Shown here in pieces: positions 11,200 through 41,666 of a stretch of 64,000 nucleotides of DNA (positions are counted from its first letter, which is position 1; every line of letters begins with the position of its first letter). The stretch is from Priestia megaterium NBRC 15308 = ATCC 14581 (lineage in GTDB: Bacteria > Bacillota > Bacilli > Bacillales > Bacillaceae_H). The notes below the pieces were generated by a model. That model did not search any database. It was given only the letters and a program-made list of their open reading frames with translations, and had not been told where the DNA came from. Made by a program: the position numbers and the translations under genes. The stretch lies in the NCBI RefSeq assembly GCF_000832985.1, contig NZ_CP009920.1, forward strand, positions 4,706,501 to 4,770,500, written 5' to 3'.

Positions 11200-11490
11200 T
11201 CAATAGCCCAAATATGCCCATGTGATGTAGGGTAACTTACACTTTACAGAAGAGCTACTTTCACTTGTACTCCCACCATAACCGGAAGTTTGGATTTCCT
11301 CATGAAGAGGAGCACTTGCCTTTCCTACAGAAGAGCTGCCTCCATTTGTGCTTCCACTTTGACCAAAAGCTTGTATTTCATCTTGTAAAGATGTGCCTTG
11401 ACCCGATCCTTTTCCGTCTGAAGCATTCCCTTCACTATTTAGCAAACTACTCAAGACGTTCTGCAACGTCGACCAAACATTGATTATCAT
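11200..11490 (-). pseudogene. Low-complexity C-terminal fragment with two repeats
   Basis: The frame encodes a Ser/Gly-rich, hydrophilic stretch containing two copies of a unit of about 28 residues: GTSLQDEIQAFGQSGST then SAPLHEEIQTSGYGGST, each followed by SSSV. It has no ribosome site. Its N-terminal part is read through the 5' hairpins of a dispersed repeat (11441 onward) on the opposite strand. It looks like the tail of a larger, lost protein, perhaps from a conjugative element, but the family is not recognised. Confidence 0.35.
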
Positions 11491-11592
11491 TCATGAAACA
11501 GAAAAAACAATTGAACGGATCCAGTTGTTTTTTCTGTTTTTAAACTTTATATGTTATTCATTTTTAGTTAACATAATTACCATTCTAGGTAC
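11441..11592 (+). repeat. Dispersed hairpin element (copy A)
   Basis: AGCAAACTACTCAAGACG opens the copy. The second hairpin GACGTT-CTGC-AACGTC is perfect. The terminator stem is long, AAACAGAAAAAACAA with TTGTTTTTTCTGTTT. It is followed by a TTATATG block and TAGTTAACATAAT. Confidence 0.8.
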
Positions 11593-11659
11593 TAAAAAAT
11601 AAATCAAAGTAGCCATCTCTAATAGTTGACAATTTGGGTGATTATTATATAATAGTTTT

Positions 11660-12012: not shown

Positions 12013-13320
12013 ATGAAAAGCAGGATGAATTATCTCATTGTAACGTTATGTTTCATTGTTCTATCTGGTGTCATTAATGCTATTTTATTTAATATGGCTC
12101 TTGAGGATATGATAAAAGATTTGAGTGTCACGAGTTCTGCAATCAGTTGGATTGTTATTTCTTATACATTGGTTATTACTTTTGGCTCAATCACATATAG
12201 CAAATTAGCTTCCTACATTCAGATAAAAAAATTATTAATGATTGGTGTTCTTTTATTCGCTTTAGGTTCAGTAATAGGCTACTTATCTAATGGATATATT
12301 GGAGTTCTGATAGGACGTGTTATTCAAGCTATGGGGGGCAGTTCTTTTATTGCTTTATCCATGATCACAGCAAATCAATATCTTCCTTTAGCTAAACGAA
12401 ATGTCACTCTTACGTTAATAGGAGGTTGTTTGTCTCTAGGTTCTGGATTTGGTTTTTTGATGGGAGGAATATTAACTCATATCTGGGGATGGCCATCCTT
12501 ATTCTTATTTATGAGCCTGACTTTACTCACAGTTTTTGGCCTATACTACTTTGTCCCCTCTGGATATGCTGGTAACGAGAAAGTAACTAAACCCTTTGAT
12601 TTTTTCGGGTTGTTTTATTTACTTCTCTTTGTTATTTCTTTTATCTTAGGAGTAAAATTAAATGGATATTTGCTTATTCTAAGCGTCCTTTCTATCCTCT
12701 TATTAAACTTGCATAGTAAAAAACAAGGAGTCTTGTTATTTATTGATTTTTCCGTATTCCAATCTTATTCTTTTAACAAATTAATCTTAATTAGTTTTAT
12801 TAATAATGCAGCCATGGTAGCTATTTTGTTTCTTTTTCCTTTACAAGCCATTCGAACATTTCATGTATCAGTTATCCTAATTGGTTTCATCTTATGTAGT
12901 ATCTCAATAGTAGGCTTTTTGATTAGTCTACTTGTGAGGAAAACTGTTCATTTTATAAGTAATAAGAAATTAATGGTTATATCTATTGGTGTACAATTAA
13001 TAGGTTTTGGCATTCTAGTCTTTCTTGGTCTTCATTCTATGGTTATGATCACACTAGGAGTATTATTTATCTATATAAGTTTTAGTGCTCTAACTGTAAT
13101 TGTTAATATTGAAATTCCTCATACAATAGAGAAGGAGAAAATGTCGATGGGGCTAGGGGTATACAATCTCTTCAATTTTTTAGGGATGTCTTTTGGTCCT
13201 TCCATATCCAGTCGTTTATTAGAGATGTCTTCAAATCTTAATTTTTCCTTCTCCTTCTTTGCAGGGCTATTAATCCTTTCTTTTGTGTTATCTATAGTAA
13301 AACAAAAGAGTGCGGGGTAA
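12013..13320 (+). CDS. MFS drug-efflux transporter (14-TM DHA2-like)
   Basis: A 435-residue polytopic protein with at least twelve hydrophobic helices spread evenly along its length. GRVIQAMGGSSFIALSMITA matches the motif region of TetA(K/L)-type and other DHA2 exporters. KRNVTLTLIGGCLSLGSGFG fits antiporter motif C. The ATG at 12013 follows AAAGAGGAG. It forms a likely operon with the upstream ArsR regulator. It probably exports a toxic small molecule in exchange for protons; the substrate is not predictable. The sequence is AT-rich, like the surrounding accessory region. Confidence 0.8.
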   Translation: MKSRMNYLIVTLCFIVLSGVINAILFNMALEDMIKDLSVTSSAISWIVISYTLVITFGSITYSKLASYIQIKKLLMIGVLLFALGSVIGYLSNGYIGVLIGRVIQAMGGSSFIALSMITANQYLPLAKRNVTLTLIGGCLSLGSGFGFLMGGILTHIWGWPSLFLFMSLTLLTVFGLYYFVPSGYAGNEKVTKPFDFFGLFYLLLFVISFILGVKLNGYLLILSVLSILLLNLHSKKQGVLLFIDFSVFQSYSFNKLILISFINNAAMVAILFLFPLQAIRTFHVSVILIGFILCSISIVGFLISLLVRKTVHFISNKKLMVISIGVQLIGFGILVFLGLHSMVMITLGVLFIYISFSALTVIVNIEIPHTIEKEKMSMGLGVYNLFNFLGMSFGPSISSRLLEMSSNLNFSFSFFAGLLILSFVLSIVKQKSAG

Positions 13321-13340
13321 TGCTGCAATAGAGCAGAAGA

Positions 13341-13445
13341 AACTACCTTAAAAAAACTAATTGAACAATTAAATCTGGTAGTTTTTTCTGTTTTTAGGCT
13401 GTATATCGTATACATTGGTAGTTAACATAATACCTCTTTCAGTAC
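13341..13445 (+). repeat. Dispersed element, terminator and 3' block only
   Basis: AACTACC pairs with GGTAGTT, followed by TTTTCTGTTTTTAGGC, the palindrome TGTATA-TCG-TATACA and TAGTTAACATAAT. The 5' hairpins are missing. It serves as the terminator of the MFS gene. Confidence 0.7.
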
Positions 13446-13675
13446 ACATTAAAGAAGAGAACCCTACTGGCAGTAGCGTTAACCCCTACAAAAAAATTTC
13501 CTATATGAGAAAAGTATGATAAAAATAGCTTATTTCATAAATCAGATATTTATGAGCTCTACTAAAAGCAACCTAAATAATTGTGGTTGCTCTTTTTTTG
13601 CCTATATTATTTCCTCATAATCCCTCTTATTTTCTTCAAAACATATTCAAATAATACAACTGGGAGGTGATTTTT

Positions 13676-17053: not shown

Positions 17054-17090
17054 TTCTATACATATTTAGTTAACATAATACCTCTTTCCA
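17054..17090 (+). repeat. 3' block of the dispersed element, alone
   Basis: CTATACATATTTAGTTAACATAATACCTCTTTCC, matching the 3' ends of copies at 13.4 and 41.5 kb, without any terminator hairpin before it. Confidence 0.6.
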
Positions 17091-17154
17091 GTAATCAAAA
17101 AAGCCCTTGGAATTTGTTTAAATTCGATGGTCTTGGAATATAGCATAGTCGTTA

Positions 17155-18273: not shown

Positions 18274-18473
18274 TGTTTAAGGTATCCTCCTCTTTATCAA
18301 TTACGTGGATGAGTATGTATATGTTTATTAAGTGAGTGCTGCTAAAATACATTTAGTCTATTTATTCATCCTATCCTACTTTCTATTTTTAATACTTTTA
18401 AGGGGTGAGAAATGCATACTATATGCAACGTTAGTTTACATAAACATTCTTATAGGTAGTTATAACAAATAAA

Positions 18474-22936: not shown

Positions 22937-23235
22937 CGATTAATTTGTAAAAAAAGCCCAGATTTTTTCTGATCCTCTTAGTTTAATTACCATAATGTGA
23001 CTTCTAGGCACCAAAAAAGGCTTTTTTTAGAACCTTTTTTAGTAATTAGGTATAGCCTCAAAGGTGATAATATCTTCAATTTCATACTCAATATATAAAA
23101 TCTCAAGATTAATGAGTGAACATTAGAAAGAGCAAATTAATTTAAATTTAAAGTGCCTTTATTCGGATAATATAATAAATAAACTAGGTTTAATTATAAT
23201 CTGGTTTATTTTCTATATTGTAGGAGGCAACAAAA

Positions 23236-25326: not shown

Positions 25327-25654
25327 GCTCCTTTTCTTATTTAATTCAGAAACGATAAAAGTACTCTTCAAATAGAGATGTTGCTTATTCATTTCTGCGT
25401 AGTGTAAATCAATGTTATTATCAATGGAAGTCCTGTTCTAACGTATCTGTACAAGACCAATTCATGCCTTATTTTATCCACGCTTACGTGTATTTATAAT
25501 TTCTTATATGACCTACAGAGAAAGAAAAGGCAGCCAATATAATATTAGCTACTTTTCCTATTTATAACTTCAGTTTTCGTTAAAATCCTTGCTAATATAA
25601 TAAGTATAAGAAGCACTAATTTGATATTTTTTCTTACATGAATTTTTCTACTCT

Positions 25655-25800
25655 GAGCAAACTACTCAAGATGCTGAGAAGTATCTCCAATCTATAATCT
25701 CATTAACCTATAGAAAAACTTCTTATAGAAATAGGGAGTTTTTCTGCTTTTCAATTTGTATATGTTATAAATCTGTAGTTGACATAATAACAATATCGGA
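25655..25800 (+). repeat. Dispersed hairpin element (copy F)
   Basis: GAGCAAACTACTCAAGATGC, second hairpin GATGC-TGAGAA-GTATC with a G-T wobble, and terminator AAAAACTTCTTAT/ATAGGGAGTTTTT with three wobbles on the + strand. The 3' block ends GTAGTTGACATAATAAC. It lies 3' to the convergent DUF3231 gene. The remaining gap 25393-25654 shows only a weak hairpin. Confidence 0.8.
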
Positions 25801-25858
25801 AATGAAAATATTTGGGTATTTTACTGCTAAGCACTATTCTTAGAATTTATTTTGTAGT

Positions 25859-30759: not shown

Positions 30760-30920
30760 TTGAGCAGACTAAACAAGACACTGTGATAGAGTCATTTACG
30801 ACTACAATTCAACGAATAGGAGAAGGCCATCTCTTTTGACTGGGAAGAGGTGGTCTTTTTCTTCTTTTAAATTGTATAGAATGTTCATTCTTAGTTAACG
30901 TAATCACCATTATAAGAACC
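30760..30920 (+). repeat. Dispersed hairpin element (copy G)
   Basis: TTTGAGCAGACTAAACAAGAC, weak second hairpin GAC/GTC, terminator GGCCATCTC/GAGGTGGTC with the loop TTTTGACTGGGAA (shared with copy C), then TTAGTTAACGTAAT. It lies 3' to the convergent lipoprotein gene. Confidence 0.7.
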
Positions 30921-31672: not shown

Positions 31673-31886
31673 TTTTATTCCTCCATATAACTATTATTGG
31701 TCCAAATTCCATTATAATGCTTTTATAGGGATATCCAACAATTAAATTCTTTGCTTAAGAATAAATCTATTCCTTATAAGGATAGATATCTAGTTACCAT
31801 AATGTACCATATCGGTAATAGCACAAATAACTCCGTTCGAATAAATCGAAACAGAGCTACAATGAGTATAAAAATTTCCTGATTAA

Positions 31887-32273: not shown

Positions 32274-32393
32274 TTCAATCTCCTCCTCATGGTATAATTC
32301 TCTCTATTTATCAAAAGACCTTCGTGTTTTTTCATTCGTGTATCCTACACATTTTTAGTTAACCTAATAGAAATTATATATAATTGTCCTTTC

Positions 32394-33960: not shown

Positions 33961-34183
33961 ATAAATTCCTCCTTTTCTTTATATAAAATCTTTTTAGTAA
34001 TTCGTTATAAGATAATTAGATTCCTCTCAAAGAAGTCTTTTATAAGACGAGCAAAGTTAGTTAATATAATAGAGCTCTCCGGAAGACATGTAAAAGAAAA
34101 CCCTTTGGCGTAGAAGGATTTTACCTTTGTAAGTTCAAGTAAGATAGTAATAGTGACTTATAAAGTAATTGAAGGGTGCAGAA

Positions 34184-36805: not shown

Positions 36806-36957
36806 TTGAGCAAACTACTCAAGACGCCAGAAGGCATCAAAGTATGTATAGCACATATTGATAACCAGAAAAATCACTGACGGAAACAGTGGTTTTTCGC
36901 TTTTTTAGGCTGTATACGGTATTCATTTTTACTTAATATAATGGATTTTATCGGAAA
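36806..36957 (+). repeat. Dispersed hairpin element (copy B)
   Basis: TTGAGCAAACTACTCAAGACG, second hairpin GACGCC-AGAA-GGCATC, terminator AAAAATCACTG/CAGTGGTTTTT, then AGGCTGTATACGGTATTC and a diverged TTAATATAATGG. It is convergent to the DUF3231 gene at 37017. Confidence 0.8.
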
Positions 36958-37016
36958 TAAAAAGGTATCCCTATTTGCTAAGAGACACCTTACTGTATTT
37001 TATAGAAAGCTAATCA

Positions 37017-37529
37017 TTAACAATCAGTTTTTTTAGACTTATGAAGAGGAGGTGGAATTAACCAACCTTTTTCTTTATTAAGTCTTAAGAACTTTCCACC
37101 AAGAGCTACTTTTTGCATATGAATTTGTGCAAACATGGCTGCAATATCTTCACGAATAGATTGTCCAATCAATTGACTACACGTAACTAGACCAGCAGCT
37201 ATATTCATTGAAATTGCTGCAGCTACTTCTGGGTCTTGAACACGTGCACCCACTGGGATATCATCTAAACAAGCTTCAGGTCGTTCAGGTGGGGTTGGCG
37301 GTAAGCCTACTCCATTTTCTTTTAACAATGTTTCAATGCTTTTTATTTCTTGCTGGCACTGTTCGATTGTCTCTTGTACCAATTTATGTAGATCCTTGTC
37401 ACCTACATGATTTAGAAATGTTTGATAGCCAGACACTAACCCTTTTGAGGTAGAAACATACGACCACGTTCCAAATACCTCCCCATAATGCATCGGTTCA
37501 TCTGTAGGATTTCCACTTAAAATACCCAT
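37017..37529 (-). CDS. DUF3231 family protein (single-domain form)
   Basis: A 170-residue helical protein starting MGILSGNPTDEPMHYGEVFG and ending KGWLIPPPLHKSKKTDC. This is the one-domain form of DUF3231, equal to one half of the proteins at 9.9 and 25.9 kb. AAGGAGGATAACA precedes the chosen ATG; the frame extends eight residues further without support. The Pro-rich segment GLPPTPPERPEACLDDIP lies at the middle. Function is unknown; the nearby likely spore-surface genes hint at a sporulation setting. Confidence 0.8.
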   Translation of the reverse strand: MGILSGNPTDEPMHYGEVFGTWSYVSTSKGLVSGYQTFLNHVGDKDLHKLVQETIEQCQQEIKSIETLLKENGVGLPPTPPERPEACLDDIPVGARVQDPEVAAAISMNIAAGLVTCSQLIGQSIREDIAAMFAQIHMQKVALGGKFLRLNKEKGWLIPPPLHKSKKTDC

Positions 37530-37665
37530 TGTTATCCTCCTTACAAAATTCATGATAGTGTGCCACCTTCCTTGCTATGCACATGTTTAACGTCTCCAAA
37601 TTTTGTTTTATTATTCTTCTACTTCTATCGAAAAATTAATTAATCAAAGAATATAATTCCATATT

Positions 37666-37757
37666 TCAAGCAAACTAACCAAGATGTTTAAAAGGGCATC
37701 GTCCACTATATCCTTGTTATTAAACCCAAAAAAACTACCCTATAGGTAGTTTTTTTG
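37666..37757 (+). repeat. Dispersed hairpin element (copy H, no 3' block)
   Basis: CAAGCAAACTAACCAAGATG...CATC and terminator AAAAAAACTACC/GGTAGTTTTTTT. The TGTATA/GTTAAC block is missing. Confidence 0.65.
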
Positions 37758-37830
37758 GAATTGTTGGAGAGATTATAAATTGTGGCTCTCATCACAGCTA
37801 TTTATCTCTACTCATTCAAAAAAATAGATA

Positions 37831-38100
37831 TTAACGAACTTTTTCTTCACGATCATCTCTTCTTTTAAGACCAAAAAGACCAACTAGTCCTAATAATCCA
37901 AGCAATTCCCAAGGTGAATCATTATTATCATCCGTATCAGTTGCTGTAGTGACATTTCGAGTGTTTACGTCATTATTATAATTTAAGTCATCATTATAAT
38001 TTGCTCTATCTACGTTATTATTTTCAGCATTAACAGGTAAGCCGAAAGTCATCATAGCTAAAGCTAACGTACATAATAAAACAGAACATTTCTTTTTCAT
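37831..38100 (-). CDS. Secreted small protein with WGxxGxxG-like C-terminal anchor
   Basis: An 89-residue protein. It starts with a Sec signal peptide (MKKKCSVLLCTLALAMMTFG, cleavage likely after VNA), then an Asn/Asp-rich linker of about 40 residues. The end is PWELLGLLGLVGLFGLKRRD, a Gly/Leu helix with a basic tail matching the WGxxGxxG-CTERM type of sorting or anchoring signal seen in bacilli. The first Gly of the signature is Glu here. The ATG at 38100 follows AGGAGGGAATACA; a longer frame lacks a site. It is probably exported and held at the membrane. Confidence 0.7.
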   Translation of the reverse strand: MKKKCSVLLCTLALAMMTFGLPVNAENNNVDRANYNDDLNYNNDVNTRNVTTATDTDDNNDSPWELLGLLGLVGLFGLKRRDDREEKVR

Positions 38101-38232
38101 TGTATTCCCTCCTTTCTTTATTAAATAAAGTCCCCCCATCACGAAATCCTATTCTGTAATGACATTAAGCTTATAGACTGTATCTAAAAATTTCATGTCA
38201 CAAGAGTACAGTAATGAGTAAAATTTCATATT

Positions 38233-38390
38233 TTAAGCAAACTACTCAAGATGCAATGAGGCATCACTCATGAAACCCAATTACGTAACGGAAAAAACCT
38301 ATCTCTTTTGACTGGAAAGAGATAGGTTTTTCTGTTTTTCTAATGAATTATGTATACAACCTTAGTAAACATATAACATTTTTTCGGAAC
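38233..38390 (+). repeat. Dispersed hairpin element (copy C)
   Basis: AAGCAAACTACTCAAGATGC-AATGAG-GCATC. Terminator AAAAACCTATCTC with GAGATAGGTTTTT, loop TTTTGACTGGAAA. The 3' block is diverged (TGTATACAACCTTAGTAAAC). Confidence 0.8.
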
Positions 38391-38446
38391 TCCTATTAAA
38401 AGTAATTTATACTCAGTTCTTATACAGACGGATAATTAATAGTATT

Positions 38447-38520
38447 TTGAGCAAACTAGCTATATGTAGAATTTCTAAAGGAAATCCACCTCTGACAAAT
38501 CAGGTGGTTTTTTCGTTTTG
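38447..38520 (+). repeat. Dispersed hairpin element (copy I, short)
   Basis: TTTGAGCAAACTAGCTATATG, lost second hairpin, terminator AAATCCACCT/CAGGTGGTTT then TTTCGTTTTG. It is followed within 25 bases by copy J. Confidence 0.6.
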
Positions 38521-38540
38521 ATACATACATTATTGATAAC

Positions 38541-38857
38541 TTGAGCAAACTACTCAAGATGTATAAAATCATCACGACTAACTTCTAATTGCGTCACGAA
38601 AAAAGCTATTGGTCCCTGATGAGCCAGTAGTTTTTTTCTGTTTTCAATAAGAATTACCAAAACGAAAACACCCTGACTATATTTTAAATAGTCAGGGTGC
38701 TTTCCCTCTACTTTTGAAGGTTTAGTCCCAAAAGAAGATTAGCTTTTCCGAGTTCTATAGTATATGAAAATCAGCAGTAGTTAAGAACCAGTATTTATAA
38801 TACAAAATGAATTTGCGTAAACTATCTACGATGCTATAATGCATTAAATAAATACCC
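38541..38857 (+). repeat. Dispersed hairpin element (copy J) within a 315 bp direct duplication
   Basis: TTGAGCAAACTACTCAAGATG-TATAAAAT-CATC, terminator built on AAAAAAGCTATTGG/CCAGTAGTTTTTTT, then a second hairpin ACACCCTGACTAT/ATAGTCAGGGTG. The whole unit recurs almost unchanged at 40895-41213. Confidence 0.85.
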
Positions 38858-38890
38858 TATTTTTTATATTAACGAATGAAATTATTCTTC

Positions 38891-39030
38891 TCGAACAGAC
38901 TAGCCAAGACGCCGTAAGGCATCCTTTTCTTATTTAAGTTCTTAAGAGAAAAAACTCCATAGGCGATCAGGAGTTTTTTTCTGTTTTTAAGCTGTATAAG
39001 ATATACACCCATAGTTAACATAATGTCCTC
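38891..39030 (+). repeat. Dispersed hairpin element (copy E)
   Basis: GAACAGACTAGCCAAGACGCC-GTAA-GGCATC, terminator AGAAAAAACTCC/GGAGTTTTTTTCT, then AAGCTGTATAAGATATACACC and TAGTTAACATAATG, the best-kept 3' block. Confidence 0.8.
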
Positions 39031-39141
39031 TACATTATATACCTAAGAACTTCATCAATGAAAACTTTAAAATAGTAGGACAAACACACAAACACCTTTT
39101 CAATTAATGAATATATTAATAGAGAAAAAATAGAAAGGTGA

Positions 39142-39510
39142 GTGATTACAATAAAAAAGTATTATTGGGACTATAACCCTGAAGATGATAGCTATTATGT
39201 AGATGAATCATATCCCCAATACAGCAATAACAATGCTCATAGAAAGAATAGAGAAAAAGAACATGAGAAGATTTGTTTTAATATTACCATTCACAATAAT
39301 CTAGCAAATCAAGGTGGAAATGCTGGAGTTAATGAAAATGCAGAAACAGGCGGACAAATTAGCGGAAATGCTGGACAAAACGCAAATCAAGGCGGACAAA
39401 TTGCTAAAAAGGGCGGACAAAATGCAAATCAGGAAGGCCAAGTTGCCAGCAAAGGTGGAAAAAACAAACTAAAAGAATTTAATTTAGAAGAAGAAATGGA
39501 AGACGAGTAA
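39142..39510 (+). CDS. Asn/Gln/Gly-rich repeat protein, probable spore surface
   Basis: The first third is acidic and Tyr-rich (YYWDYNPEDDSYYVDESYPQ), the middle is basic (HRKNREKEHEK), and the last half holds repeats of the type GGQ-I-xx-NAGQNANQ. Such low-complexity Asn/Gln/Gly tracts occur in spore coat and exosporium proteins; no family is named. The start is odd. The best ribosome site (GAAAGGTGAGTGATT) is spaced for an ATA at 39151, and the only standard start, GTG at 39142, lies inside that site. A mutated start is possible. Length from the GTG is 122 residues. Confidence 0.55.
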   Translation: MITIKKYYWDYNPEDDSYYVDESYPQYSNNNAHRKNREKEHEKICFNITIHNNLANQGGNAGVNENAETGGQISGNAGQNANQGGQIAKKGGQNANQEGQVASKGGKNKLKEFNLEEEMEDE

Positions 39511-39630
39511 TTCAGTTTATCCAATAAATACCTTTTTTAGAATGTATTTTCTATACAGAGGTATTTAAAAATTTGTACAAGCAACCCCTTTTATTTTCAT
39601 CTAATACAGAGAAGAAAGGAGGTGATTAGC

Positions 39631-39918
39631 ATGAGTGATTTTAGTAAAAGTAATTATACCGGTACTGGTGATGTATCTATCCCTCAGCCTCCTGACATTG
39701 TAACTATCCTTTGGCAGCGCAATCCTTTAGTTATACGAGTTCCACGTACAATTGTAGAAGCAACTATTATTGGAAACGCTAGACCATGTCAACGGTTATT
39801 ACAAACAGGTGACAGTTATAGAATGGCAGTAAGGTGCTTACTTGATAACGGATTTGAACAAGTATTTAGTGAAAGATTAGGTGTATTTGGTGTTTCTGTA
39901 TTTGTTCGTGAATGTTAA
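39631..39918 (+). CDS. Hypothetical protein (95 aa), probable spore-associated
   Basis: A compact, largely beta-type protein starting MSDFSKSNYTGTGDVSIPQP and ending GVSVFVREC. Two or three Cys are present. GAAAGGAGGTGATTAGC gives a textbook start at 39631. It lies 120 bp after the Asn/Gln/Gly-rich gene with a hairpin (39527-39567) in between. No family is recognised; the sporulation link comes only from its neighbours. Confidence 0.6.
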   Translation: MSDFSKSNYTGTGDVSIPQPPDIVTILWQRNPLVIRVPRTIVEATIIGNARPCQRLLQTGDSYRMAVRCLLDNGFEQVFSERLGVFGVSVFVREC

Positions 39919-39968
39919 GGAATCATTTTGAATGGCTATTAACCTAATATATTGACGAATGTCTAAGA

Positions 39969-40110
39969 GTGGGTAAACAAACCCTAAATATCATTCTCCG
40001 CCCTTACGAAAAAAGAAAAACCAATCTTTGAGTCCTAAAGGTTGGTTTTTCTTTTTTAAAACTGCATATGGTATAAATTGTTTAGTTAATACAATGTACC
40101 TTATGGGCTA
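39969..40110 (+). repeat. Dispersed element, diverged copy N
   Basis: A GGGT-AAACAA-ACCC hairpin stands where TTGAG/CTCAA is found in other copies. Terminator AAAAACCAATCTTTG/AAAGGTTGGTTTTT, then CTGCATATGGTATAA and TTTAGTTAATACAATG. Confidence 0.55.
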
Positions 40111-40201
40111 TGGCTATGTATAAAAAAGCTAGCATAAAGCTAACTTTTAAAAATGGGAAATAAGGCTAAATAATAATCAAAATAAAAATGAACTTTAATT
40201 A

Positions 40202-40348
40202 TTAGCAACCACCACCAAAACCGCCGCCAAAACAAGAAGCGCCAATAATGATTAATAAAATGAATAGTACAATGATTAAGGCAAAGCCGCCACCACAGCC
40301 GCCTCCGCCATAGCCGTAACCACAGCCACCGTAACCTCCGAAGCCCAT
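40202..40348 (-). CDS. YjcZ-family small sporulation protein
   Basis: A 48-residue protein: [20 protein letters not shown], then one hydrophobic helix [15 protein letters not shown], then [12 protein letters not shown]. The Gly/Tyr/Cys-rich head, single membrane helix and Gly/Cys tail match the YjcZ/YuzF-like sporulation proteins of bacilli. GGGGGTGG precedes the ATG. Upstream, CATATCTTA (40386-40378, minus strand) fits the SigK -10 pattern CATAnnnTA, although the -35 is poor. It is expected in the late mother cell. Confidence 0.85.
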
Positions 40349-40377
40349 ATTTCCACCCCCTACATACTTAATACTTT

Positions 40378-40386
40378 TAAGATATG
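40378..40386 (-). promoter_or_regulatory. SigK-like -10 box before the YjcZ gene
   Basis: CATATCTTA on the minus strand, 30 bp before the start codon, fits CATAnnnTA. The -35 region has only a weak GCAA. Confidence 0.4.
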
Positions 40387-40556
40387 TATAAAAAGTGAAA
40401 TTGCTCGCCCATACTCTGCACTGGTAAAAATAATAGGATTTTTGTAGATATATATAAACCCTTTAGATTACTTTACATAGAATGAATGAACCATCCCATT
40501 GAATCCCAGTAGATCAGTTACCCTCTCTAACGGATTTGCAGTTGTTAAAAAACAGG

Positions 40557-40640
40557 GAAACTCCCTACCGCCTGGGAGTTTTTCTATTTTTTTAGATGTA
40601 TATCATATATGTTCAGCTAATATAATGGATTTTATTGGAA
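40557..40640 (+). repeat. Dispersed element, terminator and 3' block (copy M)
   Basis: AAACTCCC pairs with GGGAGTTT, followed by TTCTATTTTTTTAGATGTATATCATATATG and a TTCAGCTAATATAATGG tail. Confidence 0.6.
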
Positions 40641-40721
40641 TTCATTATCTGAAAAGGTTTTGAATAGTATTAGAGAAGGCTCTAGGAATGCCACTTCGAT
40701 AAGCCATCTCTCTTTAAAAGA

Positions 40722-40755
40722 AAAAACAATCCGTCTTCGAAGACAGATTGTTTTT
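40722..40755 (+). terminator. Terminator-like hairpin (element remnant O)
   Basis: AAAAACAATCCGTCTTCGAAGACAGATTGTTTTT, then CTTTTTTAAACTCTGTAAATTATG, echoing the 3' block of the dispersed element. Confidence 0.65.
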
Positions 40756-40894
40756 CTTTTTTAAACTCTGTAAATTATGAAGGTGAAAAATAAAGTTAAA
40801 GGGATTCTAGGTGTGAGACGAAAATTACTCGATATACATCATATGCTTTTATTTTCCCTTAAGTAACTTGCCTATTGAGAATAAAATTTTATTT

Positions 40895-41213
40895 CTTAAA
40901 CAAACTACTCAAGATGTATAAAATCATCACGACTAACTTCTAATTGCGTCACGAAAAAAGCTATTGGTCCCTGATGAGCCAGTAGTTTTTTTCTGTTTTC
41001 AATAAGGATTACCAAAACGAAAACACCCTGACTATTTAAAATATAGTCAGGGTGTTTTCCCTCTACTTTTGAAGGTTTAGTCCCAAAAGAAGATTAGCTT
41101 TTCCGAGTTCTATAGTATATGAAGATCAGAAGTAGTTAAAAACCAGTACTTATAATACAAAATGAATGTGCGTAAACTATCTACGATGCTCTAAAATGCA
41201 TTAAATAAATACA
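40895..41213 (+). repeat. Dispersed hairpin element (copy K), duplicate of copy J
   Basis: CAAACTACTCAAGATGTATA onward matches 38541-38857 with few differences over about 315 bp, including the ACACCCTGACTAT hairpin and the downstream CTATCTACGATGC stretch. From 40349 to 41945 no coding gene is seen; the space is filled by such elements. Confidence 0.85.
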
Positions 41214-41408
41214 CCCCGTATAAAGCCAATGAAAGAACCACTTTTTCCACTGGTTTTATATAAAGGTACAGGTTATAAAGAGAACAAACGTACATATTCT
41301 TATAACAAGAAGTAAAATTAACTTCGGAGTTTTATAAATGAACTAAAAGAAAGTCTACTGAGATCCCCAGTAGACTTTCTTTTTTGTTATGTATAGTTAC
41401 TGACTATG

Positions 41409-41557
41409 TTAAGCAAACTACTCATGATGGATTGGATCATCACTTTACAACTACCTTTCAAGAAACAGAAAAAGCTGCTGTTGAGCCCAGCAGCTTTTTC
41501 TGTTTTTTAAGCTGTATACCATATACAAGTATAGTTTACATAATACCTCTTTAGAAC
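41409..41557 (+). repeat. Dispersed hairpin element (copy D)
   Basis: AAGCAAACTACTCATGATGG...CATC and a long terminator stem AAACAGAAAAAGCTGCTG with CAGCAGCTTTTTCTGTTT. Then AAGCTGTATACCATATACA and TAGTTTACATAATACC. Confidence 0.8.
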
Positions 41558-41666
41558 ACACGGCAAAAAAGAACCATCTTGGGAGCTAGATCAGGCCTTG
41601 TTTCTTTTTTACTCAGCTTTTTATATCTCCTTGATTTCTCAACGTTCTTTTCAAGTGCATTAGCAA

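Follow-up and report, generated by a model that had tools for sequence, protein, structure and literature searches.

The window, a 64,000-bp stretch of DNA at positions 4,706,501-4,770,500 of a 5.34-Mb contig in the 5.75-Mb genome of Priestia megaterium NBRC 15308, carries an array of repeated composite elements between about 11.4 and 41.6 kb. The original prediction, made from the sequence alone, had noted eleven copies of a multi-hairpin repeat opening with CAAACTA between TTGAG and CTCAA. Motif searches recovered all eleven on the + strand, the divergent copies at 30760 and 38447 being read by eye, but the array proved larger than had been noted and includes 16 dif-like sites. A 21-base motif with up to three mismatches had seven matches in the window against none in 100 shuffles, and CAAACTANYYAAGAYG with up to two mismatches had 12 matches against 1.46 expected, with nine of the eleven copies among them. 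The latter search also gave two degenerate + strand copies (38818 and 41173) and a single - strand match at 12783 that looks like chance. Confinement to one strand, as had been claimed, describes the window array but not the genome, in which the strict motif occurs 16 times on the + and five times on the - strand (n=21). No Rfam family reached its gathering score in the window.

The elements are composite and probably mark the boundaries of a cassette array. A complete copy opens with site A; a small hairpin that covaries, a terminator and a TGTATA-N3-TATACA dyad come next, and site B closes it, corresponding to the ‘3' block’ that had been said to follow most copies; seven of the eleven have this dif-like site, and none was found after the other four (37666, 38447, 38541 and 40896). 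The 16 dif-like sites of the window share one orientation, seven of them following one of the eleven copies and nine standing apart (Table 1). Site A reads TTGAG-CAAACTA-CTCAAGA, a CAAACTA core flanked by conserved TTGAG and CTCAAGA. When covariation was scored with our own script over 103 distinct sequences, against shuffles that ignore relatedness, the predicted TTGAG/CTCAA hairpin gave no convincing compensatory change (one of five pairs, p = 0.0185), and so probably no hairpin is maintained there. The next hairpin, GAYG...CRTC, covaries at four inner pairs (p < 0.0005), with the caveat that one of six pairs slid by one base also reached p = 0.001. The copies do carry a terminator of their own, with 12 terminator-like sites between 36700 and 41650 against 2.4 in shuffles; it would insulate neighbouring cassettes, whose genes run either way, and the dyad beside the XerD arm of site B may, at a guess, bind an accessory factor. 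In two other sequences, L009 and L021, site A copies past the match at 1501 are broken at the terminator by apparent insertion-sequence DNA, and these interruptions look as if the hairpin were an insertion target.

The element recurs on plasmids. A 241-base query matched 1,160 places in 296 plasmid records, 294 of them from Priestia; the phage collection gave none. On a 3,767-bp contig of the same genome, 241 bases are identical to plasmids of two other P. megaterium strains, and parts of the window array are about 95% identical to other strains' plasmids (L047 569-1172, L049 6683-7251). Most of our counts come from a set of 25 sequences totalling 932,965 bp, made up of the window, two plasmid contigs of the same genome and 22 stretches of plasmid records. 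Trained on 24 of the 61 motif copies, a hidden Markov model (HMM) detected 218 elements scoring 20 bits or more among the first 17 of these sequences, in blocks mostly uniform in orientation, with isolated opposite-strand matches due partly to the near-palindromic terminator. Across the whole set there are 387 sites of type B and 248 of type A; in reversed sequence the A matrix finds two.

Site B is, to judge from its sequence, a dif-like Xer site read on the reverse strand. It comprises 28 bp in an 11-6-11 layout, with an 11-bp XerD arm, a 6-bp variable centre and an 11-bp XerC arm; among 163 distinct sites, conservation covers the XerD arm (AGTTAACATAA) and most of the XerC arm (TTATCGGAA) but not positions 13-16 of the centre. 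The B matrix gave 203 matches in the first 17 sequences (570,940 bp) against 10 in reversed sequence, and the pattern AGTTNACATAAN6TTNNNGGNA, with at most one mismatch, gave 60 sites in this genome against one for the reversed pattern. The arms match those of one of these 60, at 4,659,703 of the same contig, C6 (AGTTTACATAA...TTCTAGGAA). With TATATA as its centre, this site is probably the chromosomal dif: among the matches listed, two other Priestia genomes have the identical 26 bases once each, and the site lies 2.54 Mb from dnaA, nearly opposite (dnaA at 2.12 Mb, probable dif at 4.66 Mb). This places the window 47 kb to the right of the probable dif. In Bacillus subtilis dif likewise spans 28 bp, two half-sites of 11 bp enclosing a 6-bp centre (PMC5357621), and predictions made in Bacillus put one dif in each genome (PMC3025954). 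Site B shares its arms with the chromosomal dif/XerCD (CodV/RipX) system and is unlike it in having tens of copies with varied centres.

Within an array nearly all sites point one way. For neighbouring B sites separated by 60-5,000 bp, orientation is the same in 320 cases and opposite in 15. A same-oriented B site lies within 260 bp of 149 of the 248 A sites (at 75-245 bp, and for 135 of them at 110-134 bp), whereas an opposite B comes first for none and the remaining 99 have no B within that distance; conversely, no A is present in the 260 bp upstream of 242 of the 387 B sites. The 30 elements of L052 are all on the + strand, while the 30 annotated genes starting among them, counted by hand, divide 15:15 between the strands. 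Orientation elsewhere is mixed between arrays and nearly uniform within them, so that the random orientation without a shared fold that would have refuted the original prediction was not observed. L051, L054 and L055 hold arrays that switch from - to + once or nearly so, pointing apart. The idea that replication sets the orientation found no support, as chromosomal orientations are mixed on both arms with dnaA and dif as landmarks; 28 of 29 chromosomal sites, a number that includes dif itself, lie in the dif-centred half of the contig taken as a circle, but they form only about six clusters.

The arrays are direct, the junctions in them are sharp, and a few blocks are present in one sequence and absent from another. 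At site A (234 distinct contexts), 27 of 37 independent pairs alike only on the left stop matching at positions 12-22, and 17 of 21 alike only on the right begin matching at -1 to 5, which together narrow the crossover interval to CAAACTA (positions 5-11). At site B, with 359 contexts, matching ends at 12-13 in 18 of the 51 left-only pairs, the commonest class and the border of XerD arm and centre, and begins at -3 to 0 in 21 of the 49 right-only pairs, so that the centre tends to travel with the XerC side. Five sister plasmids lack a 4.2-kb block that L055 carries, the difference falling precisely on a B site; the block has unlike centres at its ends, and the empty site carries the right-hand one. 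A 1,094-bp block of L049 is absent from the window exactly at an A site, its identity falling below the 90% cut of the indel census described below. Co-inheritance of the middle segment with one neighbouring cassette had a mixed outcome among 64 unit pairs.

These observations suggest that the arrays are probably Xer-type cassette arrays, in which B is a dif-like site, A a second junction, and the boundaries between cassettes bear terminators. Of the guesses offered in the original prediction, that of recombination sites between accessory genes has fared best, given the dif-like 3' block, the junction clusters at A and B, and the present/absent blocks found there. Most likely the host XerC/CodV and XerD/RipX would recombine directly repeated B sites, and DNA between two such sites would be gained or lost as circles. 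Site A, about 110-130 bp upstream of B, is a second recombination junction, on which an enzyme would also act.

Several results weigh against this reading. B junctions scatter on both sides, 33 of 51 and 28 of 49 falling outside the main class. The B centres are very varied (129 distinct among 387, with some common ones such as TGGATT, n=48), and Xer exchange is reported to require like centres. Without anchoring on elements, 136 of 1,227 homology ends fall in elements, which make up 4.7% of the sequence, an enrichment of only about 2.3-fold. In a census of two-sided indels at at least 90% identity, where B cores occupy 0.37% and A cores 0.19% of the sequence, 60 of 69 indels lie at neither core and none at an A core; nine touch a B core, corresponding to about five distinct events, and both block ends lie at B in two. 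A conserved block of 17 bp, too, restricts the places at which any homology-driven exchange would show. Finally, no recombinase examined tracks site A.

Another account is that the elements are ordinary repeated terminators or a MITE-like family and that general homologous recombination made the junctions with no site-specific enzyme. The elements are indeed multicopy and by eye about 75% alike, their inner segments recur by eye in differing combinations, and some junctions do lie inside the terminator, where census overlaps of 47 bp were also seen. Anchored on the element, however, 44 of 68 upstream-shared junctions fall at model positions 11-25 and none across the homologous middle (36-150), and the 37 downstream-shared junctions divide into six at -4 to 10, six at 81-110, the terminator class, 18 at 126-160 and seven beyond. 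Site B, moreover, has dif-type arms and a variable centre, occurs alone, and is oriented as its neighbours are. We therefore consider this account quite improbable; a free-standing MITE, one of the original guesses, is less likely because the two ends act as separate junctions and occur apart.

The part of the element ahead of the terminator invites another interpretation, in which the copies would be sporulation small-RNA genes, each with a sigmaG-type forespore promoter (TGAATA-N17-CAAACTA, which we take to resemble the sigmaG consensus) and a transcript of about 85-95 nt ending at the terminator, the dif-like site being a separate neighbour. GAATA stands 17 bases ahead of CAAACTA in 77 of 208 distinct contexts, against no more than 15 when the spacing is shifted by 1-6; covariation is seen in the first inner hairpin, the terminator comes behind it, and site A with its terminator occurs without site B. 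The conservation of TTGAG and CTCAAGA round the core nevertheless exceeds what a promoter needs, homologous blocks break at CAAACTA, and by eye no such motif was seen in five gamma-SASP genes of these plasmids. The guess of a small RNA with its own terminator thus holds for the terminator, the small RNA itself being, as judged from these patterns, unlikely.

Could site A itself be an Xer site? It might be a degenerate one inverted with respect to B, with the middle a short ‘D module’ or a pair like that of CTXphi attP, and the arrays alternating dif modules. Its reverse strand reads AGTTTGCTCAA, whose score 0.27% of random 11-mers would attain at one fixed place; exchange of the middle is independent of either flank; and CTXphi attP has two sites 90 nt apart (PMC5357621). 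Yet for the best XerD-arm score the surroundings of A do no better than random windows of 51 bp (mean 1.07 against -0.67, standard deviation 4.25), no XerC-like arm lies at 6-bp spacing, the crossover maps within the would-be arm, and no inverted middle was seen, an opposite B being next to none of the A sites. We regard this possibility as very unlikely. An attC identity for site B was also considered by eye, and the dif arms fit better.

Cassette arrays built on Xer sites thus remain our preferred reading, and candidates for the enzymes were sought in the same genome, which has 13 Phage_integrase matches. One XerD-like and one XerC-like protein are among them; taken from inner start codons, they score just or well below the equivalog cut-offs, and their neighbours resemble deoB/fur and hslU genes. 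Five of the 13 were scanned, some as partial readings, and all fall below the cut-offs of the integron-integrase models TIGR02249 and, where matched, NF011946. As a recombinase for site A, a 391-aa protein encoded 11 kb to the right of the window was rejected, since it is present in all ten genomes of the genus, with A sites or not. A 392-aa protein of contig C7 was also rejected, being intact in five of the ten, one of them without A sites, and missing from one genome with a single A site. Paired tyrosine recombinase genes (frames of 396 and 721 aa) lie at two places, with a third pair in pieces (Table 1), an arrangement we take to be that of Tn554-like elements.

The closest known systems include the dif (pdif) modules of Acinetobacter plasmids. 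Their 28-bp sites each have an 11-bp XerC arm and an 11-bp XerD arm round a 6-bp spacer, with accessory genes lying between the sites and module content shuffled at them (PMC13141974; PMC11705084), and the sites must alternate in orientation, making C and D modules (PMC13141974). The Priestia arrays are like them in having a 28-bp 11-6-11 site, accessory genes between sites and content shuffled at them, with the B-core events and the junction classes, scatter included, placing crossovers at the sites; they differ in that neighbouring sites agree rather than alternate. They also differ in that 149 of the 248 A sites precede a B, with a terminator between, and in that the host is a spore former. 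We know of no Acinetobacter counterpart of the A-terminator-B arrangement. Like integrons, the arrays hold many small cassettes between repeated sites in direct orientation; unlike them, B is dif-like rather than attC-like and the genes run both ways. The sites exploited by Xer-using phages (CTXphi attP, IMEX) pair a dif-like site with nearby folded DNA (PMC5357621), and host Xer would be used here in the same way; our element differs in having no match in the phage collection and in that its site A shows no demonstrable likeness to an Xer site. Both the kind of site and the shuffling are known, as in Acinetobacter, and what appears new is such arrays in Priestia, for which we found no report in Priestia or relatives in the open-licence literature, a scope with subscription papers and preprints outside it.

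The strict motif is present in six of ten genomes of the genus, and exact dif-like matches across 16 genomes number 28 in this one (G000), 10 in G001, 43 in G003, 7 in G004, 70 in G007 and 13 in G009. In a second genus of the family there are 43 in G014 (control 1) and 20 in G015, and counts are 0-3 in the remaining eight genomes, which include array-free Priestia genomes. Seven of the 16 contain the strict site A pattern (G000 11, G001 2, G003 20, G004 1, G007 21, G009 2, G015 2). Cassette arrays may thus extend beyond Priestia. Several dif-like sites of G014 have the common centre AACATG, and G014 has no strict site A pattern.

A cassette often holds a single small gene or a few; many of these genes are spore-related, and the cassettes are common to plasmids and to the chromosome beside dif. 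In the plasmid stretches, the annotations of many cassette genes name YjcZ, spore coat, germination or small acid-soluble spore proteins. More tentatively, and as something possible rather than probable, Priestia (with the second genus at the level of dif-like sites) might possess an integron-like system without an integron integrase, using host Xer at B, terminators, and a second, dedicated recombination site with the 7-bp overlap CAAACTA and its own recombinase, and trading spore and surface genes between plasmids and the chromosome terminus. Xer-based gene shuffling has been described for Acinetobacter plasmids and for dif-using elements of other Gram-negative bacteria. If our reading is right, Gram-positive spore formers have it too, with sites in direct repeat and integron-like behaviour, and the mosaic sets of spore-coat, germination and surface genes found on Priestia plasmids would be accounted for.

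Table 1. Elements and sites of the array, in window positions, and paired recombinase genes elsewhere in the genome.
Feature	Position	Strand	Remark
Complete element: site A 11438-11458, hairpin and terminator, dyad, site B 11566-11593	11438..11593	+	
Terminator, dyad and site B 13420-13447, lacking site A	13328..13447	+	
Lone site B	17068..17095	+	
Lone site B	18433..18460	+	TGCATA-CTA-TATGCA dyad immediately upstream
Lone site B	22985..23012	+	
Complete element: site A 25653-25673, site B 25777-25804	25653..25804	+	
Complete element: site B 30893-30920	30760..30920	+	divergent site A (GCAGACTAAACAAGAC)
Lone site B	31792..31819	+	
Lone weak site B	32357..32384	+	score 15, threshold 13
Lone site B	34059..34086	+	
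Complete element: site A 36806-36826, site B 36931-36958	36806..36958	+	
Site A and terminator	37666..37756	+	site B not found
Complete element: site A 38233-38253, site B 38364-38391	38233..38391	+	
Site A left half (TTGAGCAAACTA), right half diverged, then terminator	38447..38515	+	by eye; site B not found
Site A and terminator	38541..38646	+	opens ~310 bp unit recurring at 40896
Complete element: site B 39013-39040	38891..39040	+	divergent site A (CAGACTAGCCAAGACG)
Terminator, dyad and site B 40084-40111, lacking site A	39999..40111	+	
Terminator, dyad and site B 40615-40642, lacking site A	40524..40642	+	
Site A and terminator	40896..41001	+	second copy of 38541 unit
Complete element: site A 41409-41429, site B 41533-41560	41409..41560	+	
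Paired tyrosine recombinase genes	G000:C6:3961230-3963545, C7:153438-155753, C7:210530-212843		

The array also contains a unit of about 310 bp that occurs twice (40901-41212 and 38546-38855, 95.2% identity). Both copies begin inside site A, behind dissimilar upstream DNA, and the two degenerate A-like motifs (38818 and 41173) lie near their right ends.

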